Below, one piece after another: positions 1,826 through 25,782 of a stretch of DNA of 27,680 nt. The stretch spans positions 540,890-568,569 of the forward strand of contig FN649741.1 in the NCBI GenBank assembly GCA_000310025.1. The letters run 5' to 3'. The notes beneath the pieces are model-generated. The model had not been told where the DNA came from, ran no database searches, and was given only the letters and a program-made list of their open reading frames with translations. The position numbers were made by a program, and so were the translations under genes. Within the stretch, counting starts at the first letter, position 1. Each line of letters starts with the position of its first letter. The stretch comes from Ectocarpus siliculosus. Taxonomy: Eukaryota; Sar; Phaeophyceae; Ectocarpales; Ectocarpaceae.

Positions 1826-1970
1826 TCTGAATGACACACGTGATCGGGGTATGTTCGGTCCATGGTGATCTGAATGACATAGGTGATCGGGGTGTTCGCT
1901 CCATGATGATCTGAATGGCGTAGGGGATCGGGGTATGGTTGCTCCATGGTGATCTGTAGGGCATAGGTGA
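1826..1970. repeat. Minisatellite, right block
   Basis: Three more units of the family at 1135-1570 are present, each with TGATCGGGGT-like and CCATGGTGATCTGAA-like cores. The last ends at GGCATAGGTGAGCTAGC. Confidence 0.85.
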
Positions 1971-4600: not shown

Positions 4601-4972
4601 ATGACGGAGGCGTTCGCCACATCCTCGTCTTTTGCCTGGTATGAAGTCCGCCGCATGCTTGCAGCCATCACAACCTTGGAGGTGATGGTCCTTGTGGCCA
4701 TCATGTTTGCGGCATCGGTCCCGTCACAAGGCTGGGCAGCGGTTGCAACAAACACAACGGCCACAACCGAACACCTGGATGCTTCCCCGAGCGCCGGACA
4801 AGATAGCGGTAGGAGGAGAGGCAGGGGGAGGAGAAGGAGGAAGCTGTATCACGTGGACGTGACGGAAGCAGGAGAGCCGTGCACACCAAGTCCGTTGTGG
4901 GATAGGGTGGTGGACCCAGCAAACTACGATTATGGATGCAAAGAAATCCAGGCAAGACTCAATACCGCGCGA
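4601..4972 (+). CDS. Kinase exon 1: N-terminus with membrane anchor
   Basis: It begins at ATG 4601, the first Met in a frame open through 4978. It encodes a hydrophobic segment, a Thr/Ala-rich linker, an Arg-rich patch and a juxtamembrane region containing DPANYDYGCKEI. The donor is the GTGTAG at 4973. The same GT lies just before an in-frame stop, so either splicing or termination occurs there. Confidence 0.7.
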
Positions 4973-7900: not shown

Positions 7901-8266
7901 AAACGTCGAATGCTGTGTAGGTCTCACGTTATGAACTTCCATGAATCCTGGTTTACCACGCCCAACAACACGACGAACGAATTCACGCTTCTGCTTTGGT
8001 GCCAAGGTAGTCTCCCTGAAGTGCAAAACAAATGTCTCGGCTGCACAGCAGTTTCGCTGGCAACGATTTGGTCTATTATACGCTCTTCACACTACGATAG
8101 AATGAAGACATGTTACACTCACAATGTTAATATCTTGTTTCTGCAGGTGGTTCAAGATATGTGGCATCAAACACCCCAGAAAAGGCCTTCCGCCAAGCGA
8201 GTTGTGGTGCGATTGCAGCTTCTTCAGGCCGAAATCTATTCAGAAAGCGTTCAAGCAGGCCAATGA
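4601..8266 (+). CDS. Single-pass membrane protein kinase with atypical DFN motif, six exons
   Basis: Proposed exons are 4601-4972, 5281-5574, 6433-6597, 6853-7062, 7695-7856 and 8147-8266, all joined in phase 0, giving about 440 residues. A hydrophobic stretch at residues 19-40 looks like a signal anchor, followed by an Arg-rich segment at 71-80. The kinase domain then shows LVGNGRVRDVYLV (glycine loop, ~173-185), VALK with Lys195, an EILTLDA helix C, MRGHRNIVGMLGLC, HVDLKPQQ (~287-294), NDFN (~306-309), SPE, DIYSLAMIFFSLM and a KRPS Arg near the end. Family kinases normally have HRD...N and DFG; here Arg is Val, the metal-binding Asn is Gln, and Gly is Asn. The Lys and both Asp residues remain, so activity is possible. 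Substrate unknown. Resemblance to large membrane-kinase families of stramenopiles is inference. The first intron boundary is the weakest part. Confidence 0.82.
5281..5574 (+). CDS. Kinase exon 2: juxtamembrane region and ATP-binding lobe
   Basis: It encodes the glycine-rich loop and the VALK lysine. The donor GTGAGT at 5575 is strong. The acceptor at 5279-5280 (ctctccccgacaccgag) is chosen because it keeps phase 0 with exon 1. A better-looking acceptor (cttcaacag, ending 5314) would break the frame with the only usable upstream donor. Confidence 0.75.
5840..6170. repeat. Imperfect inverted repeat inside kinase intron 2
   Basis: The segment CTCGCGAAAATCTT...TTTGGAGCAGCCTGCC at about 5842-5881 returns, with mismatches, as its reverse complement at about 6125-6167 (ggcagaccgctccaaacg...cgcgag). 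This may be a degenerate MITE in the 858-bp intron. Confidence 0.45.
6433..6597 (+). CDS. Kinase exon 3: GHRNIVGMLGLC to helix E
   Basis: It is bounded by TGTCAG before 6433 and GTGACC at 6598. It encodes MRGHRNIVGMLG, the hinge VVTEYY and MALDAARGLQ, which continues directly into ALHE of the next exon. Phase is 0 on both sides. Confidence 0.85.
6853..7062 (+). CDS. Kinase exon 4: catalytic and activation loops
   Basis: The acceptor CCTTGCAG ends at 6852 and the donor GTGCAT starts at 7063. It carries HVDLKPQQLL, NDFN and the SPENYAGE substrate-binding segment. It contains the departures from HRD/N and DFG described for the whole gene. Confidence 0.9.
7695..7856 (+). CDS. Kinase exon 5: subdomain IX
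   Basis: It encodes PLTPASDIYSLAMIFFSLM, where the Asp stabilises the catalytic loop. The acceptor is GACCAG (ending 7694) and the donor GTGGGC at 7857. Phase is 0 on both sides. Confidence 0.85.
8147..8266 (+). CDS. Kinase exon 6: C-terminal helix and stop
   Basis: The acceptor TTTCTGCAG ends at 8146. The exon encodes VVQDMWHQTPQKRPSAKRVV, with the conserved RPS arginine of subdomain XI, and ends at TGA 8264-8266. Confidence 0.88.
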   Translation: MVQDMWHQTPQKRPSAKRVVVRLQLLQAEIYSESVQAGQ

Positions 8267-9028
8267 GATGGTACCGAATGAGGTGCTGACACATCGACCT
8301 TGTGGTAGAACAGACCATTTTTTCGATTCTTGATGTTTACCGGGCTGTTGGATGGTCTCCCCGGCCGGCCATGTCGTGTGAAGCGCGTTGGACAAGGTGT
8401 GTGTGTGAGAGAGAGTTAAGTGCTTTTGTTGCTAATGGTCCGTACCGGGCTGACAAGCTTTCGATGGCCTCGCATTGTTGGCGAGAAGGTTGTTCGCTTG
8501 ACCCCCTCACAATTCTCACACGGTCGATGGACCCTCAACCAAAGCGCAGTTTCAAGCAATTTTCGTGGAGGACTTGTACTAAATGGATCGGACCATCATC
8601 ACGATGTGGTCTCTCTGTGTGCGATCGTGATGGCCTGGGAGAGTCGACGGGGGGCTGCTATGATTAGGATGTGGAAGGTAGCTCAATTCAGAACAAGTCG
8701 CAAAATAGTGCTCCACACTACTGCTGTAACTGCTGTCGTTGTATTCCGTATTTAGTCTTATTGCACCACATTGTGGTGAAAGGTGTGCCTGTTACGTAGG
8801 GCTCATCTCTCGCTCTACCTAGGGTAGTTTGGTGTATAGTGCCCTCTGCTTGGTTGAAACCATTTCTTGGAAAGGCAAAAGTCGTTCGTGTGCGGCGTGT
8901 CTCCGTCGTCGGCCTTGCCGGTGTGATTATCATTCATGCTCTCGCGAGCATCTTGACGACAACAATTCGAACGTCCACGCTCGTCTGCTGGAAATAGTGT
9001 GCCGTTTGGCAACAGATTCAGATGGGGG
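8267..9028. other. Region downstream of the kinase gene, no gene seen
   Basis: It presumably includes the 3' untranslated region of the kinase. Short open frames on both strands have no recognisable motif. Confidence 0.5.
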
Positions 9029-9049
9029 TTTTAGGTTTTAGGTTTTAGG
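9029..9049 (+). repeat. Telomere-like TTTTAGG tandem repeat
   Basis: Three perfect copies of TTTTAGG are followed at once by GCCCCCCGGGAC. This is one base away from a plain TTTAGG plant-type repeat and differs from the TTAGGG tracts elsewhere in the window. Confidence 0.8.
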
Positions 9050-11309
9050 CCCCCCGGGACGGATGTTGAACTGTGTTTTGTGGGTCGGAAAGTGCCGTGG
9101 CTGATACGTATGTGTTGGTGTAATGTTATGGGTATGTTTACGTGCGGACCGACACGACACGAGCAATTCGGGCTTGCCGAAAAACTGCACTTGTAATTGG
9201 TTTTGGTTATACTTGTATTTCAGGAGGGTTGTAACGGGTGAGATTACGCACGCACGCGCTTATCCTACGAGCAGTATTTTTTCCATTCTTCGGCGATAAA
9301 AATACTCATGGCGGGTGCCGGCGGAATTGAACCCGGTTTGCCTTCCACTACAAGCATATACTACCTCTTCGTCGACCCCGTGTGTAATGAGGGAGTCGTC
9401 CTCGACAGAGTTTTTGGGAGGTTGTACAGTTGTAGTCTACCCTTCCTTATGAAGGAGATCTCCAACTACCGCTCGTTTTCTTCGTTCTTCATCTGGCCAC
9501 AAGGCTGTAAGTGACCTTCGTAGGGTTTTTGTATTAAGTAAACATGTTGGATAAAGCATGCGATCGGGGAAGCTGGGTCACGGGAAGGGTTAGGGATAGC
9601 GTCTGCGTACCCCCGGTTCTGTTCCCTCGTGAACTTGAGTTCTCCCGCGAAGGCGGTGAAGTAGCGGGCGGGCGACGTTTTTTTGTTTTGGAGAGTTTTT
9701 TTTTTGGGGGGGGGAGGGTACAAACCGACCAAACCCTGCCCCAATCGCCGTACTAAGTCCTATATACATACAGTAGCAGACAAAACTAATATTAATAACA
9801 AAAAAGAAGTGAATGTCAAAGGAGCGCCGCGTGGTGTTGGGGGGTTATTGTTGTGCATCTGCTTGCCCCGTAGCCATCATGTGCGCTTGCGCGGGCGCTC
9901 GCGCGCCTGCACACTGCGTTGCGTACCGCCTAGCTAGGCGAGAGGGAGAGCATGGTCAGTGCACCCTCAGGGGGGTTCGTAGACCAAAGCCCCGGCTGTT
10001 GCGGCGCAAGACTATAGCCAAACACGTTCTTGGAATGCATATGCTGTAGAAGTAGACTCAGAGTCCAGCGAACAAGGGGCAAGGGTAGGTAGTAGTTAGT
10101 GAGGAAAAGGGAGGGAGGGAGGATACTGTAGGGGTCGGGGTACTAAGGGGGAGAGAAGCCAAGGGGAAGGGGACGAAGAGGAAGAGGAGGAGACGGGGGA
10201 GGGAGAGAAGGGAAGAGAAGGAAGAGGAGCCGGACGTACGTTCGAGGAGGGGTAAACGAACCCCGAAACGGCGTTCGTTTTGGGTGGCAAATTTTGGTGC
10301 GAGAATGTTGGAACGTGGTACGCACAGTAGGCGGGTACGGTAGGCGAACGAACGTACAGCACTCTCAGCTGATTGCGCGCTCCTGCATGTCAAGAACATG
10401 TTCCGCGGTTTCCGTCGAGCATGGGGGTTCTTCGTTCACGCACGTAGCGGCGTGATGTCTCTCCGGGTTTTTAGTTTCACTGAAAACTCGATTCGAGGAT
10501 GTGGTTGGAGTGGATGATGATAATAATGCGGATGATTGTCGTGTGTGTGTCTTGGGTCTCCACCAGTTTCCCAAAAAACATTAATTAGACTATTGTATTG
10601 TTCTTGGCGCGTTTCAGTGCCATCACTCGGTGTTTCAACTGTCTGTGTACGACAGGTTAGACCAGTTTTGACGTTCAATACAGTACTGTAGTGGTATGTA
10701 CAGCGTTGAATGCATACTGCACACGATAAAAAAAATAACACGGAAAACATGGGGGAAAACAAGGGAAAAAAAGAAGAATCGAAAAACTTCTTCTATTGGC
10801 CCTCGAGGGGGGGGGGGGGAGAAAGGTACTTGGACTAACTACTAGGTTTGCGAGGCACCTTTTCCGGGTGCGTACCCGTGCTGACCACACAACAAGTAGT
10901 TGCCAGTCAGTCCTTCTTTGATGCAAAAAGGGGGCACCGGACGAAAAACATGTACTATTGTTTCTGTTCACCACATCATCATTATTCGTCGCCATCTATT
11001 TATCTCTCAGCACACGCATGTAACAGTTATTTCATTTATCTTTTTCCTAGAATCGCAGCATTTTCTCCGGGCCGGGAAACGCTCTCTCGAGCGCTCTCAG
11101 GCCACCACGCTTATTCACTTGGTTTCAGAGTGCAGTCCGGACCGTTCGAGCGCTGACAGGCCGGCATTTCGCATTTTGCAGTTTTCGCAATTTTGACGCT
11201 CGGAGCGCAGTTCCTTCGGTCCGATGTGCTCTATCGTCCTCTCCAATGCCATTCCGTTCGTCTCTGCCTTCTTTTTTCTCTACCGGTCTCGCTGTCTCGC
11301 CGTCCGTCG
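9050..11309. other. Intergenic region with homopolymer and purine-rich tracts
   Basis: No gene is recognised. It contains a T run next to a G run (about 9697-9720), a purine-rich plus strand at 10096-10235 made of GGGAGG and GAAGAGG words, and a G run at about 10808-10819. The open frames here are low-complexity or lack motifs. Confidence 0.5.
10096..10235. repeat. Purine-rich low-complexity tract
   Basis: The plus strand is almost all G and A over about 140 bp, in words such as GGGAGGGAGG and GAAGAGGAAGAGGAGG. Such DNA can form triplex or quadruplex structures; this is inference from composition. Confidence 0.75.
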
Positions 11310-11529
11310 AGTCGTGAGAGACGCTCTCTCTCTCTCTCTCTCTCTCTCTTCGGCGCTTTTTCTCTCTCTCCTCTCTCGGAATTAGAATCGGAACCAGAGT
11401 CCGAATGGGCGGTACAACTTTATTTTTATGGTACAAGGTATATTTATTTTTTTCCCGTTTCTCTCTCTGTCTGTTTCTATCTGTGATTCTCTCTCCGTCT
11501 CTGTGTCTGTCTGTGTGTCTTTCTCTGCC
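11310..11529. repeat. CT-rich simple-sequence region
   Basis: It contains a (CT)n run at about 11322-11348 and further CTCTC, CTGTCTGT and TCTCTC words. The serine- and leucine-rich frames through it are repeat products. Confidence 0.85.
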
Positions 11530-11937
11530 TTCTCCCTCTCTCATTTGTTTCCTTTCTCTCTTTTTCTGTCTCTCTCTATCTCCCTCTGTCACACACACAA
11601 TAATACCTATAATTTTTACACGTGTGTCACACATATTGTGCACGTGTGTGCGGCTCTTTTCTCATATGAATAACATTTTCTTTAGCTTTTCTCATAATAT
11701 GAATATCTTTTTCCGGAATCTTTTTCCGGAATCCTTCTCCCTCTCTCATTTGTTTCCTGTCTCTTTTTCTGTCTCTCTCTATCTCCCTCTGTCACACACA
11801 CAATAATACCTATAATTTTTACACGTGTGTCACACATATTTTGCACGTACGTGTGTGCGGCTCTTTTCTCATATGAATAACATATCTTTATATTTTCTCA
11901 TATGAATATCTTTTTCCGGAATCTTTTTCCGGAATCC
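11530..11937. repeat. 205-bp tandem duplication, two copies
   Basis: Copy 1 starts at 11530 and copy 2 at 11735, both with TTCTCCCTCTCTCATTTG. Each continues through GTCACACACACAATAATACC, the CACGTGTGTGCGG region and CTCATATGAATAACAT. Each ends in two copies of CTTTTTCCGGAATC. The copies differ by a few small indels, for example an added GTAC in copy 2. Confidence 0.92.
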
Positions 11938-12072
11938 ATCGGCGTTCGGTCAACGGGCGGTGAGGTTCGGTAGATCTTCTTAGGTTTTTCGCTCCCGCTC
12001 ACGCGCGCCCTCGCGCCGTCCGCGCAAGCTCCCACTCCATCCCACACCATTCTTTCGCGCACTCGAGTATGC

Positions 12073-12358
12073 ATGGCGTCGCGCAACATTTTTGCGTCTA
12101 CTCCGCCCAGCACCAAGCGGAAGACAGCTGACTACACTCTCGGTGAGGTCATCGGCAAGTGCGCCCTCTGCCCGTCAGCCAACGTGACTCGCTGTTGTGC
12201 GACCTTCGGAGGCTGTGAAAATTTCGGGACGTCAAGATCAGCATCCTGTCCGCGCCTTCGCCCTGCACAACTTGCCTGTCGGACATCAAGCCCGGCGTCC
12301 TCTGCTTGGGCGTACCCAATCCTAACGGCGTCAAGACTAAGAGCGGCAAGCAACTTGC
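12073..12358 (+). pseudogene. Exon 1 of chimera: unrecognised Cys-rich segment, frameshifted
   Basis: It starts MASRNIFASTPPSTKRK at ATG 12073. After FGGCENF the coding sense continues in another frame as DVKISILSAPSPCTTCLSD and later GVLCLGVPNPNGVKTKSGKQ. The donor GTGTGA at 12359 leaves two bases that complete an Ala codon with the first base of exon 2. The family is unknown; the Cys pairs could bind zinc. Confidence 0.5.
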
Positions 12359-12757
12359 GTGTGATCTATTCCCTTCTCGATTCGTGTTGTGATGTCATTC
12401 ATGTCTCTGCTTATTTTAGTTCGCTTCGTATTGTCTTCGTATTGTTTGTTTGACTGGGCGCGGCGCGCTTCGTTGTTTTTCCGTAGGCGACTTTGTTTCG
12501 GTTTTACTTCGTTGTTTTTCCGTATGCCGCTTATTAAACTACTGCCGCCGCTGCTGTACAGACGTCGAAACACATGTGGAATAGAGCGGTGCGGTGTGGT
12601 GTTTTGTCTTGCGTTCAACGTATGCTTTATTACTTTGCGGTCGTCCTTTGTGGTTTTTCTTCCGGGCGGTCCTTCTTCATTTTGCCTCCTCCGCTCTTTC
12701 TTCCCTTCTTGTGTCGTTTTCGTTTCATGTTCAGCGTACGTCAACAAACACTACAAG

Positions 12758-12857
12758 TGGGAAGGACTGCTTCGGGCTGAAGATCAAGCTCAGCAGGGAC
12801 GGCAAGCAGGCCTTCCGGTTCATCGAGAAGGTTGAGGCCGAGGACGCCAGGATTGGG
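12758..12857 (+). pseudogene. Exon 2 of chimera
   Basis: The 100-bp exon starts after CTACAAG and ends before GTGAGG at 12858. It encodes GKDCFGLKIKLSRDGK and FRFIEKVEAEDARIG. It is phase-compatible on both sides with exons 1 and 3. An alternative acceptor at TGTTCAG (12733) also exists. Confidence 0.5.
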
Positions 12858-12927
12858 GTGAGGTTTACTGATGCGTGCCGATTCTTCGTGCATTTTGTTT
12901 TTTTTTCTCGCCGCCGACCCGACTGAG

Positions 12928-13801
12928 TTCAAGGCGAGAGCCATCCTTTCGTCAACCAACGCCACCATAGACACCATTAACGCACACGTCCTTGACATCC
13001 TTCCAGGAGACCTTCTCACAGCATACAGTTGTGACACCGTCGATCCTGACGCGACTGACGATGGTATGGGTTTCGTTGCCGCAGCTGACCTCCACGCTAT
13101 TGACGTTTCTGGTGTACCGCCTCATGCCTTGGATTTGAAACTGAATTGCATGGTGATGATCACACGAAACCTAAACTTCAAGCAGGGCTTCGTCAATGGT
13201 CAGAAGGCTATCGTTCGTGGATACTCAACAGGAATTGTGCATGTAGAACTACTAGACGGTCTCTCAACGCTCGTTCTCATCCCACGTATTCGCTTCAAGA
13301 CTAAAGTCGGCAGCAACGGTATTGCTTTCTCGCGATTGCAACTTCCACTACGAGTGTGCTACGCGCTAACCATCAACAAAAGTCAAGGACAGACACTCTC
13401 CAAGATAGGTCTTGACTTGAGAGCTGACGTTTTCACTCATGGTCAGTTACGTCGCACTTAGTCGTGCCCAGGAGCGATCATCTATCATGTGTCTCGCATT
13501 ATCATCACGGTTGCGAGGATCGTTGAACCGCGCCGCGTTCGTCGCTAACATCACATTCCCGTCATTCGTAGATGCTGCAACTGACTCTACCAACAATTCC
13601 CCGTCCTTGCCGCCTTCGTACATCGACTTCATCGGATACATGCACGCAACCGACACCAGCAACAACACCCGACGAGACATGGGGCCGCCTGGGCTACACG
13701 ACACAGACAAAAACGCACACGCAAATGGCCAGGCTAATGCCCGCCATCCCAACCAATGCGCCGACGGCGGGTGGATTGAGGCAAAAGGCCTATCGCGTTA
13801 G
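12928..13801 (+). pseudogene. PIF1/Helitron helicase C-terminal region, frameshifted
   Basis: Helicase similarity runs from FKARAILSSTN to about SRLRGSLNRAAF, crossing a frameshift near 13447. The part after the shift ends at TAG 13799-13801 with a hydrophilic, low-similarity tail. The 70-bp intron before it (12858-12927) has a clear T tract. Confidence 0.85.
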
Positions 13802-13844
13802 AGTAATGTGTCCAGTGTATGTCGGAGTTGCGTATTGAGGTACA

Positions 13845-14245
13845 CGCCTGGTGTGAGAATGTCCTTTGTTGCTTCAGATCCGTGTGAGTGCCACACTTCA
13901 TGTTCGTAGGCATGTCTTCAGGTGGGTGCGATCGTTGTCTCCTATTGGTGTCGAGCTTGGTGTGAGGATGTCCTTTGTTGCGTCAGAAGCGTGAGAGTTC
14001 TATCCTGCATCGTCGTAGGCGTGTCTTTACGCGGGTGCGATCGTTGTCGACTATTGGTGTCGTTTTGTTGCGTCACAAGCGTGAGAGTTCTGTGTCGTGT
14101 CTTTGGGTGGGATCGAGCGTTGCCGCTTTGCCGCTTATATAAGTTCGATCTTGGTGTGTGTATGTCCTTTGTTGCGTCAGTAGCGTGGGAGTTCGACCCT
14201 TCATGGTCGTTGGTGTGTCTTTAGGTGGTTGCGATCGTATGTGTG
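13845..14245. repeat. ~110-bp tandem repeat, about four copies
   Basis: Units start near 13849, 13961, 14054 (shortened) and 14152. Shared words are GGTGTGAGGATGTCCTTTG, TTGCGTCAG, GCGTGAGAGTTC, TCGTAGGCGTGTCTTTA and GGGTGCGATCGTTGTC. It lies directly after the helicase remnant and may be part of the same mobile element. Confidence 0.88.
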
Positions 14246-14448
14246 GTGTCGCCATGTAGGATTTGGCGTATGTCTGAGCGTGTCGATTGCATTAATACAG
14301 TTAGTTTATGTCTACGTGCCAACATGTTGTCACGCGACAGACATGCACGTCAAACGGGCATCCTCAACGACACATAACTTCCATTTAACCTTCCACGATC
14401 CCCACACGTACCATCCCCGTGTACCTTGGGACTCGCTCCATTGGGCGT

Positions 14449-14464
14449 GGCGGCGTAAGCCGCC
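14449..14464. other. Perfect GC-rich hairpin
   Basis: GGCGGC-GTAA-GCCGCC forms a six-pair stem with a four-base loop, followed by AAAAAACTTG. Helitrons end with a GC hairpin then CTRR; here CTTG does not fit CTRR, so the link is only suggestive. Confidence 0.45.
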
Positions 14465-14650
14465 AAAAAACTTGTATGTATATACATTTAGATCCAATGA
14501 ATGCAAGGGCGAGGAGGGTGAGTTCCTTGGCCTTGTTGAGACTGAGGTCCCATTGAATCAATGAATGGCTGATGCCCCCCAGAACAGAACAATGACACCT
14601 ACGTACTGTCTGTAGATATGAAGTCGCCTTTGATGGTATAGTCTATGTAC

Positions 14651-14666
14651 TTAGGGTTAGGGTTAC
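14651..14666 (+). repeat. Interstitial telomeric repeat (TTAGGG)
   Basis: TTAGGGTTAGGGTT lies in unique sequence. TTAGGG is the common telomere unit and is reported for Ectocarpus. Confidence 0.7.
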
Positions 14667-16037
14667 CGATGATTGCTGGAGTCGAAAGAGAAAAACAGCA
14701 TTTTTTTTTTCTCCGGTTTATTTTTGTTTTTGTACTTAGCACCAGCTGGCATCACTGGTATAAATCATCAGTGTATAGACTTAAAAGACTCGAAATAAGT
14801 CCACCCAGCCAGCCGGTTTTCCTCCACTCACTGAAAAGACTCCACCACATCCAGTTCACTGCTGTGAGTATATCTCGAATGGGTAGTCTTTCTGTGTGTG
14901 TTTTTATTTTTATTTAATTTTTGCAACTGGCGAATCCAAAATCTACGCAACTGGCAGCTGTTTCGTACCTCCCCCCCCCCCGCCGTTGTTACTGCTGCTG
15001 TACACCCCCATTTCCCCATTATCGAGAGCGGGCTCGGAGGATCCGCCAAAATGCATGGTAGATAGGAGCAGCAAGTGTGACTCCGGACAAGAAAATAACG
15101 TTCTAACAACCAAGCACCAAGGTTCCAACACAATAGTCTAAGTGCTCGGTCTCTGTAGCGGGGCTAATCAAGGTGCTGGGAAAACGGCACCAAGAGCTTT
15201 GCAGTGGCCACAACGCAACCAAGGCAGGAAGGAAGGAGGGCGGAAGAACAAGCAACTTGAGCCAAGGGATTTGTCTCGAGCAACGCTAGGCTGGGCCAAG
15301 CAAAGGATCTCCCCCTGCGTGACGTAATGTGGGCAGGTTACTTCACCTAGAACGCGTCGACCGATTGGCTGTCCACAGGTAAGTGTGTGCACATCCATTG
15401 CACGCGCCTGTTGCTCTTCCCCACGTCTGTCCCATCGTCTTGCTCCGGTGTATGCATGATGTTAGGAAAAGTGAGAAGCGCCAGATTTCCCAGCACGTGG
15501 GTAGCAAGTAGCAAGCTAAGTGCCTGCATAGATGGTCCATCCCATCGATACAGCAGTGGTATGCAGAAAGCAGGTGACCGCTTTCCTTCTCTTCGCGAGA
15601 AACATGAGATCGGTGCCCCGCTTCCCGCTTCCCCTCGCGCCTGTCGCCCCCAAACCATTTCTACCCTGCTGCTCACCTGGTACGCCGTTGACAGTCCCGC
15701 CAATGCGGACCGTGTAGAGCACACTGCTGCAGCGCACCTGCTGCACCAACCAGGCACTAACACCGGTTACCACCCAAAACCCAACACCCAACACCTACCT
15801 ACACTGGGCTACTCCAAGCACCACCAATGTAGAGCCTACCCACGCCAGCAACATCTACATTGTACTTGGCACGCACCACGGACGGTGGTCTGAAAATATC
15901 GCGTAAACGCCAAAACCTGTGTTTCTGTACAGAACGGGCCGAAAAAATTCAAGAACAAAAAATGCTCCTAAAATAATTATGTAGATCAACACTTAGAAAT
16001 GTCCTCCCACGCTGTGACACATGAGAGTGAAGGGTTT

Positions 16038-16055
16038 GGGCGGCTTACACCGCCC
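16038..16055. other. GC-rich hairpin
   Basis: GGGCGG-CTTACA-CCGCCC forms a six-pair stem. It resembles the hairpin at 14449-14464 (GGCGGC stem with a TAAG/TTA loop). Function unknown. Confidence 0.4.
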
Positions 16056-17506
16056 CCCTGAGAGAAGCGACAGACCCGACTCCTAAGATGAATGGACGTC
16101 ACCTAGCAGTATAACGGTTACTCAATTGTTACGTTAGGTAAAGCGTACATTTCATAATCTAATGATTGTGTATTTTGACACAAACGTCAACTGAACGGGG
16201 CGATAGATAAGCGCATCGTATATATATGCAGTGAACAAGAAACTGGAAAGGAATGCACCGAAAAAAGCCCAAGGGTGCGCAGTACCATAACCGAAAGATC
16301 ACGCTCAAGAGCAACACACCACACCCACCTGACGTCGTGCTTTTGTCGAACGCACGACACTCGAGCCCATGGCACCACCCTACTCTGCGAAAACAAGCCG
16401 TCACGTCAAAGAGATAATCAGTGTAGCGGAAACGCATGGCATGTACTGCGCTGCTCTCCACACGCCGCCTACAGCAGAAACACGCAAAGCGCGGCACAAA
16501 CGCGGCTTTTCCTCTGTATCTGCTGACCCGCTCCGATTTGGGGTCAAACAAAAGACTTATTCTGTTGTGCATGCCTTCTTTTGACGCTGGTCCTCAGCCT
16601 TCCCCTCCGCACGTGTAAACTACTCAGGATGAATTGAACGTAACCTAGCCGCTGAGCATACTGTAACTGTTGTTTTCACCCGCATTGCTGTGAGAGCTAT
16701 TCACTGCCCCCGGCGGTCAAATGGCTAAGCTCGTAAACTTACCATCCCGGACTGTACTACACAACAAATAAGAGGGACCGGACTGCAGAGTTCCTCTCGG
16801 GTTAATATCGAAGGCAGGCACAGCAGGGGGTTGTGGAACGAAATGCAAAAGTCCACAAGATAGTCTTGCGTGTCATGTGGTATCTGACTTCTGTTGGACT
16901 CTTCTGGCTGTTATTTAGAAAGGGGGTCTCGCTGAATATAGCAAAACACCAGTGTTGTTTTGTAGCATCCCTGCAGTGGTCGATATTTTGGGCCGAGAAT
17001 GCCTTTCCCCCAACAGAATAATTGTAGAACACCTATACTCAGCGTACAAAGTGCTCGGGAATACTCTTGGGAATTCCATTTTTCGAAGAATGTCATGCTG
17101 ACGCGTCGAATGCTTCAACACTTCATGGATAGCGACTAGGCTACGTTGTCCAACACCCACACCTTCTCGGCATTCACTTTGCCCTCGACCTCCACTATTC
17201 AGAGCACGATGGGATTGCTTATTCGGCGCACACATGTCCTTCCACCAGCCAGGGCGAGGCATCGGCTACAACCAGCTTGCACCGCTTCTGTGTCTTGATA
17301 CTCTTGCTGGCAGCCTAGTGCCCACCTGCACGTAGCGGTGCAGGCACGTTGTTGCCAAGCTAACGTTCCTGTCGTCGTCACTGCTCATTAGTCGCGAGGT
17401 CATCGTTTGTTGAGGAAACTCTCGCGCGCCTTTCGCACTTTCCGACCCGTTTCGCGCCCCATGTAGGTCGTCTTGCGCGTGGGCTGTCGCGTGGGCAACA
17501 AGTTTC

Positions 17507-18670
17507 ATGATGGGTCGAGTATCGATTCTGGCGACCCTTATTGACCCGCTCAGGAGGGCTCGCGAGGCTTTGCAAGGAGCTGGTGACGTGAAGGCTGCCA
17601 TGCGGGAACGCTTGGATGACTATGAGCGGGTGGTGAATCAGTTCGAGAGTAAGCTCGGGTCAATATCCGATCGGCGTATCGAGCCCGAGGTGACGAAGCT
17701 GCTAGTACACTTCGACGAGATAACTGCTCTCATAAGAAAGTACACGGCCTCGCCAGGGGATTCGTTGCTCGTGAGATTGCGCAAGAAAACCGACAGAGCC
17801 AGGCTTCACAAGGAGCTTGCGGAGGAGCTCGAGCGCATCGACAAGGACATGCAGCGACAGCTGGCGACCATTCAAGTCCTGGGAATGATGGAGTTGAGCA
17901 ACCCGTTACCCACATTCTCGTTGGACGTTGGAAATGCGGCAGGTCACGACGGTGGTTTTACGTGGCATAACCTCAATTGGTGGATGCTGTTGCTCCTGGT
18001 CGTACTTGTTCCAATTGCGTTAAGCGTATGCTGGAAGCATGGGGGAGGGGGAAGCTCGACGCGTCCTCCCGTCCCAGACATGGCTGCAGCACCCGCTGCA
18101 GACACGGCTGCAGCCCCGACTGTATCGCTAGCTCTGCCTGCGAGCTACGTGGAGCGCAATTCTCTGATATCCGAAGTTGTTGGCAATCTCACGGCCGCTA
18201 ACGCGCCCCGATCCCCGTATGTGCTGCAAGGAAGTGGGGGAGCTGGGAAGACGGTTCTAGCAACCGCTGTCGTTAGGAACGAGGAGGTCCGGAAGCGCTT
18301 CGGGCGGGGGATTTTCTGGTTAGACGTGGGGCGTCATGGCAACCTCAAGCTTCCTGCCCTCGTTCAACGGCTGGCGAGGGAGATGGATGTCGTCTCGGAG
18401 AATATGGATGGCCTGGACGATTGCGTACGGGATATTGCTTTCGCTGTTGCGAGGGACAACTCTGTACCTCGCCTCCTCGTTCTGGACGACGTATGGCATG
18501 AAGAGGTCATGGACGCTCTACGACCCACGGGGCTCCAAATTCTGGTTACAACCCGCCTCGCTTCGGTAGGACGCGGCATGCTCGTTGGGGATATGGAAGA
18601 GGGAGAGGCCCGTGAGCTGCTGAGCAAGAAGAGCGGGGCGGTGGCGCTTCCGGTGCCAGAGGCCAACCAA
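17507..18670 (+). CDS. NB-ARC-TPR exon 1: helical domain, TM helix, NB domain
   Basis: It starts at ATG 17507 (a second ATG follows at 17510) and ends before GTACGA at 18671. It encodes residues 1-388, including the P-loop, the FWLDV strand, Walker B and the TTR sensor. The charged, Lys/Arg/Glu-rich N-domain (to ~130) has heptad-like helices and resembles signalling helical bundles only in general character. If the intron were retained, the frame would stay open to 18982 and give a NB protein lacking ARC and TPRs. Confidence 0.92.
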
Positions 18671-21600
18671 GTACGATGCCTTGTGCGTCACGAGTCGAGC
18701 AAACTGAGATGTTTGTCGTTCGCCTTTGCAAACGGGCGCTCGTCTTTTTCGCTGGGCATAGCTCCAATGATTACGAAAGTCCCCACCATCACGATTTTTC
18801 TGAATCGTGAAATCGGCTGTATTCCTGCGCGCAACATGTGCATCACAGGTTGCCCGGGATTGCGGATGTCATCCACTGACCCTCGTGATAGCGGGGTCGC
18901 TCAGGTGCGTCAGGGAAGCGCCAGACTCCGCCCTGGCGTGGCGCGAGCTTCACTCAGAGATAGAGAGAATAAAACGAAGTAGTCGGGGTCTCGAGATGGC
19001 CACTGACTCCGACGAGGAGCCATCACAATCGTCGCTGTTCCCCGTTCTGAGCCTGAGCTTCGAGCGGCTGAAGGTGCAAGAGCAGGACTCGTTCCTCAGC
19101 CTGGCTGTGCTCGCCCGTGGAGTCCCTGCACCTGTTGCAATGCTGGCCAACCTCTGGGACAAGGTGCACACGTGCTTGACATGGTCTCGGTTGCATATTT
19201 CCAAGAAGCATGACCCCCCTCTGGACAACGCTTGTGGTGTTTGGTAATGGTGCTAAGTATCCTTCGTATGCGACAAGAGTACCCCAGCTCTGTGGGCGTC
19301 CTTGCACGGACGGTCTCAACGTTTCCTCACACTAGAAAAGTAGGAAAGTCTCCTGTCGAAATACCTTGGTGCACGCACGCGGTGGCCCTTGCCGATACGA
19401 TGCCCTTGCTGGTGTTTCCTTGCAGGACGAGAAGGGTGCCAAGAAAGAAGCGAGCGCCTTCGTAGGGCGCTCTCTTTTGATTGAGGAGCAGGAAGCCTTT
19501 ATTGTTCACGACATGCTGTTGGACTTCATTGACGTCATGTGCCAGCACGAGAGCAGCGTGGTTCAGCTGGCAGTGATGCGCCAAACGCACTACCTGAGCA
19601 GGCTCCCTGTGGTCTGGCGGTACTGCCGTAAGGGAGAGTCCCTCGAAGGTATGTATTCCCTGATCTCCCTGTGGCGGCCAGTGATGAAGCTATCTGGTAA
19701 CGAGAAGCTAGACGTGGAAACCTACGAGGCCAGCCTGCGGGAATTGGGCGAGGAACATGAGCCAATAGACGTGGCCAATGCCTGCATGATAATCGGGGAC
19801 GTGTTCTTACTGCAGGTGCGTTCAACGTGGGGTATGGTAAGTGCCTTCCTCGAAACCTTTCCCCAAGAGTCATGTTTGGGAGTGTCAGCAGGACCGACGA
19901 ACCGTGAGGGGTTGTTGGAGAGCCAGATGACCCTAACCCTAACCCAGAAACGTTGTGTAGTGGTTTGGAGGAGTGATGCGGAGTTCGCACAACGCTCTGA
20001 TGAGTGGCGCATCGATGCCCAAGAATAGGGTTGGGTTGCTGGGAGAGTAAGGCGGAAATCGAAGGGAGTTTCGTGGCGTTCGTAACCCCGTATTTGTTGC
20101 GGCAATGTTTTGTGTTGCGGTGGATCAATGCCTCACATGAGCCCACTGCCTGTTGCACAGGACCAATACTCGGAAGCTGAGCCGCTTTATCAACGGGCTG
20201 AGGAGATATATGAGAATCTTCAAGGGCATGATTACCCACCTGTGGTGACATCGCTTAGCAACCGGGCTTCGTTGCGGCATCGACAGGTACGAGCCGTCAT
20301 TATTTTCCGGGGAAAGTTCTGTGTGGAACTGTCGTGCTCAGCACTCGGGTCGAGAGATAACTGATAATTCCTTCGGGCGAGGTCATCCAAAAGTTGCTGC
20401 AGTTCTTGACAATCGGCCGCGTTGATGAGAGTTGTGTTCCTTCGTACCAAGTGTTTTTCGAGCCTTGACCACGCTCACGTCCCGTTTCCCCGTCACTTTC
20501 CAGGGCGAGTATGCCGAGGCTGAGCGACTCCATGAGCAGCCACAGACCGTGCGAGAAGAGGTGCCGGACATGGGTGGTCCTGATGTTGACGTATCGCTCA
20601 GCAACGTGGCCACGTTGTTGCACCAACAGGTGAGAATGTTACAACAGGTTCGTCGTGCTCAATAAATGTCGTCGTCTATCACATCCGGATGGAGTTATTC
20701 CTGCTGTGTACACCAGCGACAATGAACGATTCGTCTCCAACTCCCAAGAAGTATGTGTTTTAGTTTTTTCCCCGCGGAAATCGGAAGCCTGGTGTTTTTG
20801 GGGGTGACCTCTACCCCTCTTCCCCAGGCCGCTACTCAATAGAGACCCAAACGTGTTACGAGGTAAGAAGGCTAGCTGACCACAGAATAGCTGGTCGCCG
20901 AGCTTTGATTGCAGATCTCCTGCATAATCCCTCACCAGACGCACGCCAGTCGGTCGTTCCATGTCATTATCGTGCGAGCTGCACACCTTCTCGTCCCTCG
21001 GCCTTTCTATGCGGCCGGCGCCTGAAACATGCTTACCTTGATCCTCACCTGCTAGCGTGTTGAACAGCATTACTATAGTATGCCAAATCTCACCTTTCTC
21101 TTCTTCCCGTCGGGGAATAGTTAGGATGGTGAGTGGGGAGACGACACAACGATATTCTTGCAATTTCCCCGTCTGCAGCAATCTTGCCTTCTCCCCGATA
21201 TTCTTTCCTACTACTCTCTCCGATCGCCCCACTATTGTCGAAGCGTCTGTGTCAATTCTGTCTGTGCTCGTTTCCCTCTGTCGCTGGACTGACTGGCTCC
21301 CAGTTTTTTCTCCTTTGTCTTGTTCTTCTACTGCGTCAACCTCGTAGCTACAACCGATTTGTTTCTTATAACCCTACCAATGGAGATTCTTCCTGTCAGA
21401 ACACCAGGTTGTTACAATACAATCCTCCAATTTGCTCAAGCACCGGGCCTGCAATAAGCGTTCGTTAGGTCGGGTGGAGGTATTGAGCACGTATGGTCCC
21501 GTCGTAAAACTCTCAAGAATGGAGCACTACATGTACTTCAAGCCGCATTCCCCCCCCCAATTTCGGAGTAAGTACTAAGATGAAGAACATCCTGTGCGTG

Positions 21601-24600
21601 CGCCTGTGAATGACTCCAACTTTTGCGTCATCGTCCACCAACCCAAAAACCGGCTGTTAACATTGGTTTCTTCGTCGAGCCAGCTGTACAGCTGTGACAA
21701 TACTTCCTCTGTCCCCAACTGTTTTCAGGGTTGGGAAGAAGACGGTCTGCAGAGAGAAGCCGCTACAAGCGACCAGGTCGTTAGTGGCCCAGAACATCCA
21801 GGGGTGGCTCTAGACTTAAACAATCGGGCGGAAACGTTGATAACGCAGGTGAGGATTGTCAGAATTTCCAAGAGATTTTCAGCCTTGTAGATGTTAGGGT
21901 ATATGCTAGAGCAACTCTAGAACAATGTGCTATTCGTTCGGTGCTTCTGACGGTGGCGTCTGTGGGCTACGCCATATGGTGGCTGCGGGGACCATGGTGA
22001 TGGTCTCGAGATCGGAACGGTTGATTGATCACGCAAGTCCAGCACAAATCCCTCTCTATCGCTATGAAGCACATGCAGAGTCGGCCGCGGCATGATCCCC
22101 GCCTCAACCCTCGTATGCGCCTCATTGCCGTAGTGGCCGCCGCCGCCGCCCGATCATTTTATGTCCCCCCGTGTAGAGAGTTGTGCGCGATACGTGTGAT
22201 GCGCGGCGGAACGCATCGCGTTAACTTCTATCGGAACGGAGGCTTGCGTAGGTTAGGTCGCCGCAGGGATACGAAATTTCCTGGGATTGCCAGTAAAGTT
22301 CGGTGACCAACCAGGCGGGGAGCCCCAGACGTTTTGTTTCGGTTTCTGGTATTGCAACTGTTTTGCTCTCTATGTGAACGAATTGGTTTCGGAACGTCAC
22401 CAAAGAACGCATCGCATGAGAAGCCTAAAAAAACTCAATATGGAGCATATGCGCCTCTTGTCATTGGTGCACAATCGGGTGGCCTGGTTTGGAGGCAGGC
22501 AAGAGTCGAGGAATTACTGTAGGCCTGGAAAATTTTCGTGAGGGCCCGTTATCATTCGTTCTTGGTGGACCACTCCCTCACACGCATCCACTCCTTGTTT
22601 CATAGGGCAAGTATGCTGCGGCCGAGCCACTGTTGGAGCGGTCGCAGGCTTTACAAGAGAAGGTCCTGGGTCCGGACCACCCCGAGGTGGCCGTGTCGCT
22701 CAACAGACTGGCGGAGCTGTTGAGTGCGCAGGTGACGTTATTACCGCGTTCTTGAACTTCGTGGGATCCTTTGCTTGGTCGCGTGCTGGTTTGTTTCTCC
22801 GAGACAATCTCTACTTATTACGTTCAGCACCTCAGGGTGTAGAGTGAAATACCTCAAGATATTTGCTGATTGCCGTTTAACAACTGTTAGATCTCGCTGG
22901 ATCACTGTTTCACAAAGGAGCATTTTCTCTCCGGATTGAGCTGGGCCATGTCAAGCGACCACACTCCTAACGTTTTTTGTCCTGACCGCACATTGCAAGT
23001 TCAGAGAGGCGGCCCTCTTTCGTTTTTTCGACTTTTGGAGGTCGGGGAACGAACTCTGTGCCCGGATCACCCATGCCGTTCCCGGGTGGATCACCCACCG
23101 GTTTGCTCATTTAACAAATGAAACGTGCCTAACCCCTTTCAAACGTTACATCCGTTCGTTTCGCGCTCGCCGGGGACATTCCAGGGAAACTATGAAGAGG
23201 CTGAGCCGCTATACAAGCGCTCAATGGCCGTTGATGAGAAGGTTTACGGTCCTTACCACCCAAAGGTTGCTGCAGATTTCCAGAGCTGGGCAGTTTTGTT
23301 GCATCGACAGGTAAGAACCGTAGGATTTTCATCGAAATTCCTAGTGGTTGGACGTTGATTTCATTCTTATGGACAACCCGGGCGAGTTGTAGAACCCTCT
23401 GCAAGTATATGTTTACATCCTTGACCACGCTGATCCGCATACCTTGACCATACCGATCCAGGGCAAGTATGCTGAGGCGGGCCCGTATTACCTTCGAGCT
23501 ATTGACATCGTGGAGAAGACTCTGGGCGTAGACCACCCAAATCTTGCTCAAATGCTGAACAGCCGAGCGGCGTTGTTGGATCGCCAGGTGAGAGTATTTT
23601 GCTCTCATGGCATTAGATTTATGAGGTGGCGCTTGGCGCTTTTTGTTGATGGCAGTACTGTGTCACGATACATTTCTTTGTTGTTTATGCTGCGAAACCG
23701 ATCGTTTCTGTAAGAGTATAACAGTCGCAATGTTCAGGATACAACGAGAGAAGCTTCTGGGACCCCCGGGGATATTTTATCAAAGAACGTTTAGTGAGAA
23801 CACTCTGGTCAATCGCACCCCCCACCGAAAGAGGTGCATATGCCCCCATTCCTCAATAGAAGTACGAGACATATTCACCCGCACGTCATGCGTCCTGCGT
23901 CGTGCGCGCCTGTCCACGCGAGAGAGGGACCACGGTACGTGTCAGGGCGGCTAGTTCAATCAATGAAGCGCGCTGCTTCTTAGCGATATGCGTTCCTACT
24001 TGTTGCACGTGCGAGATTTGCGTGAGCACTTCACTGTTTTCAGTCTCCAGAGCATCCCTATTCACAATGACCCGCGCATCCACCAACTGTGGAAATTGGA
24101 GGACAACCACCACTCCCGCGTATGGATGCTTTCTCATGGTTATCGGTGGTGGGACAATGAATATCTTCACCAATTTTGGTCTTTCCAGGGGATGTATGAC
24201 GAAGCGGGGCCACTTTATGAGCGGTCTCAGGCTATACGGGAGAAAGCCCTGGGTCCGGAGCATCCCGATGTAGCCCGTTCGCTCAACAAGCGAGCGTGGC
24301 TACTCTGTCGACAGGTGAGAGCGGTTCGGTTTCACATTTTTCTAGGGAACGTATGGTGCTCGGTGGAGTGCTGCACAACCGAGCGTCGTCGTAGCGAGGC
24401 TTTACTCCTCCGCAAAAGCAACCTTGACCACGTTCTTATGGACAATATACCTCATTCCAGGGCAAGCATGAGCAGGCCGAGCCTCTGAACGAACGTGCCA
24501 TCAGCATCTGGGAAGGGGCATTGGAGAGTGAGCAACCCAGAGTAGCTCCTGGACTCGAAATGCGGGCATGGGTTTTGAGAGCGCAGGTGAGAGGCGTCAA

Positions 24601-25094
24601 CTATCCAGGGGATTTGTTGTGGTGGACAGAAAATCTACATGTTGGTTCGGTTTGCCGGGTTATATGTTGAAGTGATGTTGTCGTGCTCGGGGACCAGGTG
24701 TTGTTGTTGTTGGACAGTCGGGTGAGAGCCGTTGAGGCAACTGCGGTCGCCGCGGTGCTCAAGCCCCGAGCGTCATTTTTAGAGTAACGCCAGACTTGAT
24801 TCTGTCCCCTCGATACTGCGAGGACCCCCGTTGATCGAGCACTTATTCGTGGTGGGCCCACTCCCTCACACGGATCCACACTGTTCCACAGGGCAAGCAT
24901 GCTGAGGCCGAGACGCTTTCAGAGTTGTCGCAGGCAATGCACCAGAAGGCTCTGGGGCCGGAGCACAGCGATGTGGCGCTGTCGCTCAGCAACCGGGCGG
25001 ATGAACTATATCGACAGGTGAGGGAAGGCAAGAACGTCCCACTGATGTTCTTGTAGTGCCCGGTAAATGCTGCTACTCTCAGGGCGAGTTTTGA
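17507..25094 (+). CDS. NB-ARC-TPR receptor-like NTPase with membrane anchor, exon-encoded TPR array
   Basis: Exons: 17507-18670, 18849-19163, 19426-19815, then nine TPR exons at 20161-20286, 20504-20629, 21729-21848, 22606-22731, 23185-23310, 23462-23587, 24189-24314, 24461-24586 and 24892-25017, all phase 0. About 1002 residues if the last exon is 25083-25094. Order: helical N-domain (1-130), transmembrane helix (~156-176, WWMLLLLVVLVPIALSV), Pro/Ala linker, NB-ARC with P-loop GSGGAGKT (242-249), LLVLDDVW (323-330), TTR (348-350), CHPLTLVIAG (GLPL-like, ~395-404), VHD (520-522, the MHD position), then TPRs. NB-ARC proteins are nucleotide switches in plant and animal immunity and cell death; TPRs bind peptides. 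Brown-algal NB-ARC-TPR genes are proposed pathogen receptors. Membrane tethering is inference. The true 3' end is uncertain. Confidence 0.9.
18849..19163 (+). CDS. NB-ARC-TPR exon 2: ARC subdomain
   Basis: It is bounded by CATCACAG and GTGCAC. It encodes CGCHPLTLVIAGSL, matching the GLPL motif with Gly-Leu changed to Cys-His, and FPVLSLSFERL and FLSLAVLARGVPAP, typical of the ARC1/ARC2 helices. Length is 315 bp, phase 0-0. Confidence 0.92.
19426..19815 (+). CDS. NB-ARC-TPR exon 3: winged-helix with VHD motif and link to TPRs
   Basis: It is bounded by CCTTGCAG and GTGCGT. It encodes FVGRSLLIEEQE, then FIVHDMLLDFID, where VHD stands for the nucleotide-sensing MHD motif. It ends in a helical linker (VETYEASLRELGEEHEP) and MIIGDVFLLQ, which joins the first TPR. 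Length 390 bp, phase 0-0. Confidence 0.92.
19931..19945 (-). repeat. Interstitial telomeric repeat (CCCTAA) in NB-ARC-TPR intron 3
   Basis: CCCTAACCCTAACCC lies in the intron between the NB-ARC body and the first TPR exon. Confidence 0.75.
20161..20286 (+). CDS. TPR exon 1 (126 bp)
   Basis: It encodes DQYSEAEPLYQRAEEIYENL and, after the turn, SLSNRASLRHRQ. The acceptor is TTGCACAG and the donor GTACGA. It begins with Asp where all others begin with Gly. Confidence 0.92.
20504..20629 (+). CDS. TPR exon 2 (126 bp)
   Basis: It encodes GEYAEAERLHEQPQTVREEV and SLSNVATLLHQQ. The turn lacks the usual GPEHP. The acceptor is ACTTTCCAG and the donor GTGAGA. The intron just before it has CCTTGACCACGCT, shared with TPR exons 6 and 8. 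Confidence 0.9.
20630..21728 (+). other. 1.1-kb intron between TPR exons 2 and 3
   Basis: This is the longest intron of the gene. I looked for further TPR exons on the plus strand and saw none that I could defend, nor a gene on the minus strand. Confidence 0.5.
21729..21848 (+). CDS. TPR exon 3, degenerate (120 bp)
   Basis: It encodes GWEEDGLQREAATSDQVVSG, then PEHPGVALDLNNRAETLITQ. It is two codons short in helix A and has lost the YxEAEPLY pattern, though GPEHP, NNRA and the final Gln remain. The acceptor GTTTTCAG and donor GTGAGG are good. It may be an active exon with an altered helix or one beginning to decay. Confidence 0.75.
22400..22501 (+). pseudogene. Relic TPR exon between exons 3 and 4
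   Basis: One frame reads KKLNMEHMRLLSLVHNRVAW then FGGRQ, matching the EKALGPEHPDVARSLNNRAW...RQ pattern of intact exons with small indels. Helix A is hardly recognisable and no good acceptor or donor is left (GCAAGA follows the Gln codon). Confidence 0.55.
22606..22731 (+). CDS. TPR exon 4 (126 bp)
   Basis: It encodes GKYAAAEPLLERSQALQEKV and a GPDHP turn, ending SLNRLAELLSAQ. About 50 bp of its upstream intron matches that of TPR exon 9. Confidence 0.93.
22994..23090 (+). pseudogene. Relic TPR exon between exons 4 and 5, frameshifted
   Basis: The start reads KFREAALFRFFDFWR (compare GKYEEAEPLYERS), then the match continues in another frame as VGERTLCPDHP (compare IREKTLGPDHP). The second helix is lost. 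Confidence 0.65.
23185..23310 (+). CDS. TPR exon 5 (126 bp)
   Basis: It encodes GNYEEAEPLYKRSMAVDEKV and a GPYHP turn, ending QSWAVLLHRQ. The acceptor is ACATTCCAG and the donor GTAAGA. Confidence 0.93.
23462..23587 (+). CDS. TPR exon 6 (126 bp)
   Basis: It encodes GKYAEAGPYYLRAIDIVEKT and a GVDHP turn, ending NSRAALLDRQ. The preceding intron is only 151 bp and carries CCTTGACCACGCT. Confidence 0.93.
23725..23790 (+). pseudogene. Relic TPR exon fragment between exons 6 and 7
   Basis: One frame encodes RIQREKLLGPPGIFYQ, matching AIREKALGPEHP of intact repeats. Flanking sequence is too changed to trace the rest. Confidence 0.5.
24189..24314 (+). CDS. TPR exon 7 (126 bp)
   Basis: It encodes GMYDEAGPLYERSQAIREKA and a GPEHP turn, ending NKRAWLLCRQ. 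It is closest to the TPR consensus of the locus. Confidence 0.93.
24461..24586 (+). CDS. TPR exon 8 (126 bp)
   Basis: It encodes GKHEQAEPLNERAISIWEGA and a divergent SEQP turn, ending EMRAWVLRAQ. The acceptor is CTCATTCCAG and the donor GTGAGA. CCTTGACCACG lies about 30 bp upstream of the acceptor. Confidence 0.92.
24700..24735 (+). pseudogene. Relic TPR exon 3' end and donor between exons 8 and 9
   Basis: TTGTTGTTGGACAGTCGGGT followed by GAGAGCCGTT matches the end of TPR exon 6 (GTTGTTGGATCGCCAG then GTGAGAG) and the conserved intron start GTGAGAGCCGT. Confidence 0.45.
24892..25017 (+). CDS. TPR exon 9 (126 bp)
   Basis: It encodes GKHAEAETLSELSQAMHQKA and a GPEHS turn, ending SNRADELYRQ. 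Donor GTGAGG at 25018. If the donor is not used, translation adds VREGKNVPLMFL and stops at TAG 25054-25056. Confidence 0.92.
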
Positions 25095-25140
25095 TCAACC
25101 CGACTGGTTTGTTGGAGAGATCCTGGCTGTTTCCGGGATA
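25083..25140 (+). pseudogene. Decayed terminal TPR exon; keeps its acceptor, stops after GEF
   Basis: After acceptor CTACTCTCAG the sequence reads Gly-Glu-Phe-stop (25083-25094). The DNA beyond still resembles a TPR exon: ACTGG..TTGTTGGAGAGATCCTGGCT lines up with ACTG..TTGGAGCGGTCGCAGGCT of TPR exon 4. Spliced transcripts would end here, making the relic the stop-bearing last exon. Confidence 0.6.
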
Positions 25141-25699
25141 ATATTTATGGAGATCTGTTGAAGACGTTGTTTCGTTGTCTCTCACTTCCACAAAGTACCC
25201 GTTTCATTTTTTTGTCGCACCCCAATAGAAAGACATGGGTTTGGGGGTGTGGCTCTCCCATTGGGATGGCAAGGCCCCGGCCCACAACTCGCACGGCCAC
25301 CCCAAATGCTTGCCTCGGCGTGTCCGTCATTTCATGTCTTGAGTCTCTCAGAAACACGCTCACCTCGGCTACCAATCATTCTTGTATTCTACGCCAGCCC
25401 TTCATATGCTTACCTCAAGCCGCCGACCGTACCCATGTATTGTTCTGGCCAGGATCACGAAATACCTACATCTGTCGGTCTTGCTGTTTTCAGCTCAAGC
25501 TACGAATTAACATGCTTATCTCAAACGTGACAGCCTTTCCATGTATTGCTCTGGCCAATGGCCAACAACACTTTACCTTGACCTCTCTCCTTTTCAAGAG
25601 TACGACCGTTTTCCCTTGTTAACCGAATCCCACCCCTCTCTCCTTCCCTTCGGGGCAAGGTGTGGAAAGTGGGTGGGCACAAGGCACGACGATGCTGTT

Positions 25700-25700: not shown

Positions 25701-25782
<82 letters not shown>
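25701..25782. repeat. (CT)41 microsatellite
   Basis: An uninterrupted CT dinucleotide run of about 82 bp. It creates an Arg-Glu repeat frame on the minus strand and Ser-Leu on the plus strand, neither of them a gene. Confidence 0.97.

Follow-up and report, generated by a model that had tools for sequence, protein, structure and literature searches.

What might explain how a gene comes to carry a row of repeat exons of nearly one length and a single phase, and are whole exons, exchanged through their introns, the pieces from which such a row is built? The question is raised by the window, by which we mean the whole stretch of 27,680 nucleotides of Ectocarpus siliculosus DNA analysed here (C16:540890-568569 of a 189-Mb genome), which carries nine TPR exons behind one NB-ARC exon and two linkers.

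Exon layout of the window gene and of the TPR family

All twelve exons lie on the plus strand. Coding exon 1 (17507..18670), for which the start codon is assumed at 17507, occupies a frame that is open from 17414 through 18670 and encodes an N-terminal region, a hydrophobic segment and the NB-ARC domain (Pfam NB-ARC, E 2e-14; 53.9 bits, cut-off 23.5). By eye, the hydrophobic segment between the N-terminal region and the NB-ARC resembles a membrane span, and the stretch L012 has two of them. Exon 2 (18849..19163), the end of the NB-ARC module, shows 33-42% amino acid identity by tblastn with 9 other searched stretches, and exon 3 (19426..19815), the linker preceding the TPRs, 32-37% with 10 other searched stretches. 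Eight of the TPR exons are 126 bp long: E1 (20161..20286), E2 (20504..20629), E4 (22606..22731), E5 (23185..23310), E6 (23462..23587), E7 (24189..24314), E8 (24461..24586) and E9 (24892..25017), the last that is visible. E3 (21729..21848) is 120 bp long, has a degenerate first helix and is possibly dying; it scores 27.7 bits with the exon profile, against 51-87 for the other eight, among which E7 has the top score of 87.3 bits. All nine are open, in phase 0, with AG before and GT after, and the three upstream coding exons are likewise joined in phase 0. TPR_12 is above its cut-off on all three exons tested (E4, 1.2e-9; E6, 8.7e-8; E7, 1.9e-9), and nine repeats of the 42-residue type were aligned. 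The initial annotation, which had described eight TPR exons of 126 bp and one of 120 bp with every intron in phase 0, is thereby confirmed at the exact coordinates and with AG/GT flanks, and its comparison with the one-repeat-one-exon layout of brown-algal NB-ARC-TPR genes is supported by the NB-ARC domain and the symmetric TPR exons. Judged by its sequence, the window gene is a member of the brown-algal NB-ARC-TPR kind and a candidate immune receptor.

Nine TPR exons are a minimum, because C16:568570-575932, directly after the window, reads N over about 7.4 kb, through either a gap or withheld sequence. A model of the terminal TPR exon, built from six arrays, gives 47.0-94.5 bits in ten stretches, among them the six of origin, and finds no terminal exon either in the window, where its best score is 22.4 bits on E4, or in C16:575933-581000, the two being separated by the 7.4 kb of N. 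No TPR matches were found beyond the N stretch up to C16:581000. Elsewhere in the window there are a fragment of a Pif1 helicase 2B domain (12862-13458, 3.8e-10), about 4 kb upstream of the NB-ARC exon, a weak likeness to ADP-ribosyl cyclase at 4517-4975 (2.1e-4, under the family cut-off), and a perfect (CT)41 run at 25701-25782, downstream of the last visible exon.

The same exon layout was examined in a sample consisting of the window and 34 further stretches with TPR exons, 237,569 letters in all, taken from one genome in a single assembly. The TPR family is larger than the sampled set, because a single-exon query gives at least 150 matches among 551 candidates genome-wide. Across the 35 stretches the exon profile finds 286 TPR units of at least 50 bits, with AG directly before 276 and GT directly after 248 of them; 240 of the 286 are open and carry both AG and GT at their precise ends, a further 34 retain the acceptor but lack the donor (six of the 34 with a stop), and 12 fail otherwise. 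The AG and GT at the exon ends are not due to chance, because the counts fall when the ends are shifted (by -9, -6, -3, +3 or +9 bases, AG in 0-2 and GT in 0-48 of 286; by +6, AG in 198, codon 2 being usually AAG, and GT in 41 of 286) and also in intronless TPR repeats, found as single open frames in ten stretches, where AG stands at 3 of 84 ends and GT at 1 of 84. Weaker units of 12-50 bits (n = 134) are mostly broken, five being open with both splice sites. The counts of intact and broken units therefore describe a family that is a mix of live and dead exons.

The intronless stretches (L036, L037 and L039-L046) have a 126-bp TPR step with no introns between repeats, some with an NB-ARC in the same frame, and at C25:1772770-1773744 TPR matches lie inside a frame computed as open over 16,827 codons. 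In L006 a TPR unit of 76.6 bits (7694-7819, minus strand) is inverted within a plus-strand array. L013 (898-3187) is a series of two-exon units of about 330 bp in which live and dead exons alternate, and in L017 (2873-7086) the amplification of a two-exon unit of about 740 bp has given six rounds of two alternating exon types. Positions 503-2852 of L031 (C16:824500-827500) form a tandem repeat of 268/269 bp whose monomer contains two TPR exon bodies in opposite directions; one of its 17 units has a donor GT, and a receptor exon seems here to have been turned into a satellite.

A conserved core near the 3' end of the TPR exon

The last third of the exon reads TCG CTC AAC AAC CGG GCG nnn TTG TTG. 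This core, CTCAACAACCGGGCGnnnTTGTTG, occupies exon positions 91-117 and ends 9 bp before the donor in 126-bp exons. Conservation at its synonymous sites far exceeds what codon usage would give, in older arrays as well. Among 123 exons thinned to below 80% identity, synonymous identity reaches z values of 8.6-23.6 for codons 31-36 and 38-39, whereas the control codons 2-30 give -2.2 to 5.8 and the splice-site codons 1 and 42 give 7.0 and 13.7, with codon 37 at expectation; the baseline for z is the codon usage of the same amino acids in codons 1-30, and related exons are counted as independent. Outside young arrays (152 exons of 24 stretches, thinned to 106) the core still has z values of 7.8-20.2. 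A 21-base word has 158 matches in the genome with at most two mismatches, and the reversed word has none; among the 100 matches listed, 87 fall in sampled stretches and 13 elsewhere. The best-kept 21-bp core of the window is that of E6 (23558..23578, plus strand), which matches at 18/21, with the other eight window TPR exons at 13-16/21. Over the full 27 bases, the nine window TPR exons match at 16-22/27.

A hairpin or palindrome in the core (CAACAA..TTGTTG) was considered and rejected. Its six pairs are complementary at frequencies of 0.57-0.84, against 0.58-0.84 expected, in the 123 thinned exons, and of 29 changes on both sides 13 are still complementary. A plain sequence signal fits, because the pairing about equals independence.

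Such a signal would suit an exonic splicing enhancer near the donor; splicing would then account for its conservation, and exchange, described below, would fall there only because it is the longest stretch that the exons share. We give this explanation a substantial probability, somewhat short of an even chance. The core lies 9 bp short of the donor, and it is absent from the TPR runs that have no introns (median 8/21, best 11, in 80 units), where the amino acids differ too. However, the three upstream coding exons of the window gene, from the NB-ARC exon to exon 3, which bear donors, lack the core as well and match it at 12-14/27, against a median of 22/27 in 276 TPR units. The six terminal exons likewise match at 12-14/27, their end splicing being presumed, and an enhancer specific to TPR exons is possible. 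Homology length alone may place the switch, because the exons are most alike at the core. The core word may be kept for exchange, kept for splicing, or homogenised by exchange. That positions 91-117 might be an evolved exchange site, kept at synonymous sites for in-register and perhaps regulated recombination of modules, we regard as having little probability.

Splicing might also act on the array as a whole. It had been claimed that any exon of the array could be skipped without a change of frame, and with nine open phase 0 exons this holds in principle. Diversity could then come from alternative splicing of a fixed array, with exons skipped in different transcripts, and alternative splicing is named in the title of Teng et al. 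2023 on these genes. Nothing of skipping is to be seen in the window, however, and we consider this explanation possible but doubtful.

Where exchange cuts

Where, then, do exons exchange their parts? We grouped 278 units by upstream intron end, by exon body (positions 1-96) and by tail (the last 9 bases and 50 of intron), at an identity of 92% for body groups and 85% for upstream and tail groups. Among the 20 body groups with at least two members, 16 are linked to two or more tail groups and 8 to two or more upstream groups, and 10 of the 23 upstream groups are linked to two or more body groups. Counted in pairs, which are not independent, the link is kept between upstream intron and body in 154 of 275, between body and tail in 35 of 190, and between tail and next upstream intron in 65 of 117. 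All three links break; that between body and tail is the weakest, and the other two, each broken in 44% of pairs, hold about three times as often.

Single chimeric units locate the cut more closely. A unit was taken as a candidate when one relative matched it at the upstream intron end (-40 to -11) and a different one in the intron at 147-176, so that the cut could fall at any position between -10 and 146; the intron span from about +50 to -40 lies outside the coverage of this test. Of the 26 candidates 25 were dissected, and in 23 of these the midpoint of the switch falls at exon positions 91-121, where an even spread would place about 5. The two others switch at 57-58 and at 120-134, and 24 of the 25 midpoints are exonic. 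With the left zone extended to 24 the same 25 units are obtained, and 17 of the 25 switch intervals overlap 97-117 and 8 do not; with a left zone of 1-40 and a right zone of 137-176, 24 of 26 midpoints fall at 91-121. The exchange events are fewer than 25, because the chimeras share ancestry, coming from three contigs (C2, C6 and C10) and, in one case, from a C16 satellite unit. Selection of chimeras by their match to 1-96 and to 118 onward was rejected as a procedure, since the choice forces the result (16 of 18 overlap 91-117, and 18 of 18 lie within 91-121). Switches between upstream intron and exon were sought in three set-ups, which yielded one, one and seven chimeras, cut at 10-12 and at -3 to 78; of the seven units switching between -3 and 78, two do so perhaps at the exon start. 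The exon front is exchanged too, more rarely.

The edges of shared blocks are consistent with a concentration in the same part of the exon. Core-like sites hold 37 of 94 left edges and 60 of 101 right edges, against null means of 12.2 and 13.3 and maxima in 1000 draws of 23 and 25. Edges in introns number 44 of 94 on the left and 51 of 101 on the right, and of these 2 of 44 on the left (as by chance) and 12 of 51 on the right (null 2.6) are at core-like sites. Under three other alignment settings, 23-38% of left and 26-38% of right in-array edges fall at exon 91-117, a region that makes up 6.3% of the length; block edges locate exchange only to about a third of the exon, because alignment would draw exchanges from position ~75 to the donor towards the core edges.

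In classical exon shuffling, whole phase 0-0 exons would be duplicated or swapped by recombination in the flanking introns. The symmetric phase of the TPR exons would be explained in this way, as would the intronic block edges (44/94 and 51/101), the 52 of 117 same-tail pairs that lead to different next upstream introns, and the two-exon unit that has been amplified with its introns on C27 (L017, a 708-bp self-match at 95.2%). As the main pattern it is unlikely, and the initial assumption of whole exons swapped via introns needs revision: the link between body and tail is the weakest of the three, at 35/190, and of the 25 chimeras whose switch was free to lie anywhere between -10 and 146, 23 have it at 91-121. 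Because the dissected switches fall mostly near the 3' end of the exon, equal phase is not what keeps the frame there.

The most-broken link thus appears to lie inside the exon and not at the exon edges. We present this as new, and prior publication is possible: a switch internal to the exon has no mention in the passages considered of PMC11378527 and PMC5772912, nor in titles and abstract openings of the brown-algal exon-shuffling literature, a scope outside which Zambounis 2012 and Teng 2023 fall.

Decay of the window array, turnover in its sisters and relation to known systems

Has the window array itself taken part in such exchange? It looks old and quiet, with no sign of recent shuffling. 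Its median best within-array identity, taken over the 8 exons of equal length, is 0.61, the lowest of the 30 stretches with at least three live exons (some of these being neighbouring pieces of one array), and medians elsewhere reach 0.92 (L002, C2) and 0.97 (L017, C27). The window exons have a median best match outside the array of 0.73, and none of the eight is nearest to a sister exon, a condition shared by 10 of the 30 stretches, window included, and to be read with the larger pool outside the array in mind, because this favours outside matches. Neither within-array identities nor self-matches reveal a recent exon pair or block in the window array; the sole window self-match of at least 95% and at least 100 bp, at 1198-1429, lies outside it. 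No exchange was seen within the window array, where the core is kept at 13-18/21.

The introns of the array contain the remains of former exons, all on the plus strand. A relic TPR exon lies in the intron after E1 (20353..20428; nhmmer E 7.4e-6, 22.0 bits), a probable relic exon body at 22995..23073 (E 0.016, 11.2 bits) and a possible relic exon end at 24743..24787 (E 0.24, 7.4 bits), which is still over the best of 30 shuffles (4.5 bits), and two more intron hits of 3.8 bits fall below that control. Relic exon ends are recognisable also by core-like words: at 19897..19917 in the intron before E1 (17/21, with AT at the donor place), at 20021..20041, 23372..23392 and 24374..24394 (15/21 each), and at 25094..25114 after E9 (16/21). 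The introns of 19816-25450 thus hold five core-like sites, whereas 300 dinucleotide shuffles averaged 0.05 and never gave more than one; the reverse strand has none, nor has window 1-17400.

The live window exons are under constraint, slightly relaxed in comparison with reference pairs: pN/pS over codons 1-30 is 0.44 in the eight exons and 0.34 in 211 reference pairs. No diversifying selection was seen in the window, where the eight exons have individual pN/pS values of 0.29-0.91. In 93 close pairs of the genome pN/pS is 0.68, and amino acid changes are commonest at codons 40, 37, 41 and 17. The degenerate, 120-bp E3, the pN/pS of 0.91 for E1 and 0.65 for E2, and the absence of a terminal exon from the visible sequence could mean that the window gene is a pseudogene. 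This is distinctly unlikely, however, with all 12 exons open and provided with splice sites, the value of 0.44 against 0.34 over codons 1-30, and a gene end that may lie within the N stretch.

Turnover is apparent in sister arrays. Two genes on C2 (C2:8809500-8819000 and C2:8840500-8852500) lie in stretches separated by 21.5 kb. In a block of 2913 bp that includes their NB-ARC part they are collinear with 96.7% identity, and in a further 543 bp with 95.4%; the remainder of the pair aligns as 33 shorter segments (84-99% identity), mostly in altered order and in part overlapping alternatives for one place, with the order restored in the last two, near the end. The assembled copies show TPR arrays that are scrambled while the NB-ARC part is near-identical, which points to recent turnover. 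Blocks of at least 95% and at least 100 bp common to stretches number 125, of which 28 are within a stretch (one of them the window repeat at 1198-1429), 52 between stretches of the same contig and 45 between contigs. Turnover of such arrays is borne out in this genome by the sister arrays and not by the window array, with its best matches of 0.61 and no recent block. Helitron capture as the carrier was also considered and set aside, the genome having 53 Helitron_like_N matches and the sampled stretches none. Assembly errors at short shared sequence are a very improbable source of the scrambling: gaps of 34-100 N interrupt four array stretches, the core word is only 21 bp, and some joins may be assembly errors because the arrays contain gaps, but the switch intervals vary by unit (92-94, 109-110, 119-121) with no single word boundary, and only the arrays are scrambled, the NB-ARC part remaining collinear.

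The reading that we prefer, with a probability of about 0.7, is that the window gene is an old, slowly decaying member of a large family of receptor-like NB-ARC-TPR genes, whose arrays are subject to birth and death, and that exchange takes place mostly in register at the exon core. Modules of repeat and intron would arise by duplication, pass between arrays and disappear, with dead exons persisting in introns. The piece most commonly exchanged would start in the 3' third of one exon, take in that exon's tail and the intron behind it, and stop at the corresponding point of the following exon. It would be transferred by ectopic but homologous in-register exchange over a short coding core (exon 91-117), and would regenerate an exon of 126 bp and phase 0-0; introns and the exon front would see exchange too. 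It is the register of the switch that would preserve the frame; equal phase does not drive this. Unequal recombination or gene conversion is the probable process and the germ line the probable place of exchange, and by analogy the use may be ligand sensing by the TPR superhelix.

How does this compare with other receptor systems? Plant and animal NLR receptors combine a STAND NTPase with a repeat sensor. They use LRRs for the latter, whereas the window gene uses TPRs, each repeat in its own exon. In V(D)J recombination parts are recombined to diversify receptors, and the likeness is confined to the proposal of recombined parts; here the exchange lies in a coding core. The EsV-1-7 motif, which is expanded in brown algae, gives at least 150 matches among 880 candidates and none in 14 control genomes, all bacteria or archaea. 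Taken with the gene family, it makes a brown alga the probable host. Among brown-algal genes, the NB-ARC-TPR genes of Zambounis 2012 reportedly have one TPR per exon. According to PMC11378527, the NB-TPR genes of brown algae show exon shuffling of TPRs, somatic recombination has been proposed for them, and recombinant loci are as yet unreported; the claim of TPR exon shuffling is repeated in PMC5772912, and the 2012 NB-ARC-TPR paper is cited in the reference list of PMC4421812. The window gene resembles the NB-ARC-TPR genes of the 2012 paper and of Teng et al. 2023, as PMC11378527 reports on them, in its order of NB-ARC then TPRs and in belonging to a family with shuffling TPR exons; it differs as a member that is without recent turnover, and its sister arrays differ in switching inside the exon, at the core. 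The brown-algal ROCO (LRR-ROC-COR) genes are described by Teng et al. 2024 (PMC11378527) as having one LRR per exon, of 72 bp and equal phase, with shuffling and alternative splicing; their exons are in phase 2 and encode LRRs, unlike the phase 0 TPR exons of the window gene.

Directed recombination of brown-algal immune receptors has been proposed since 2012, and a place of about 27 bp in which exchange is concentrated, together with strong conservation at silent sites, makes that proposal testable. Equal exon phase, commonly taken to indicate exon shuffling, can be a side effect of exchange that stays in register within exons.
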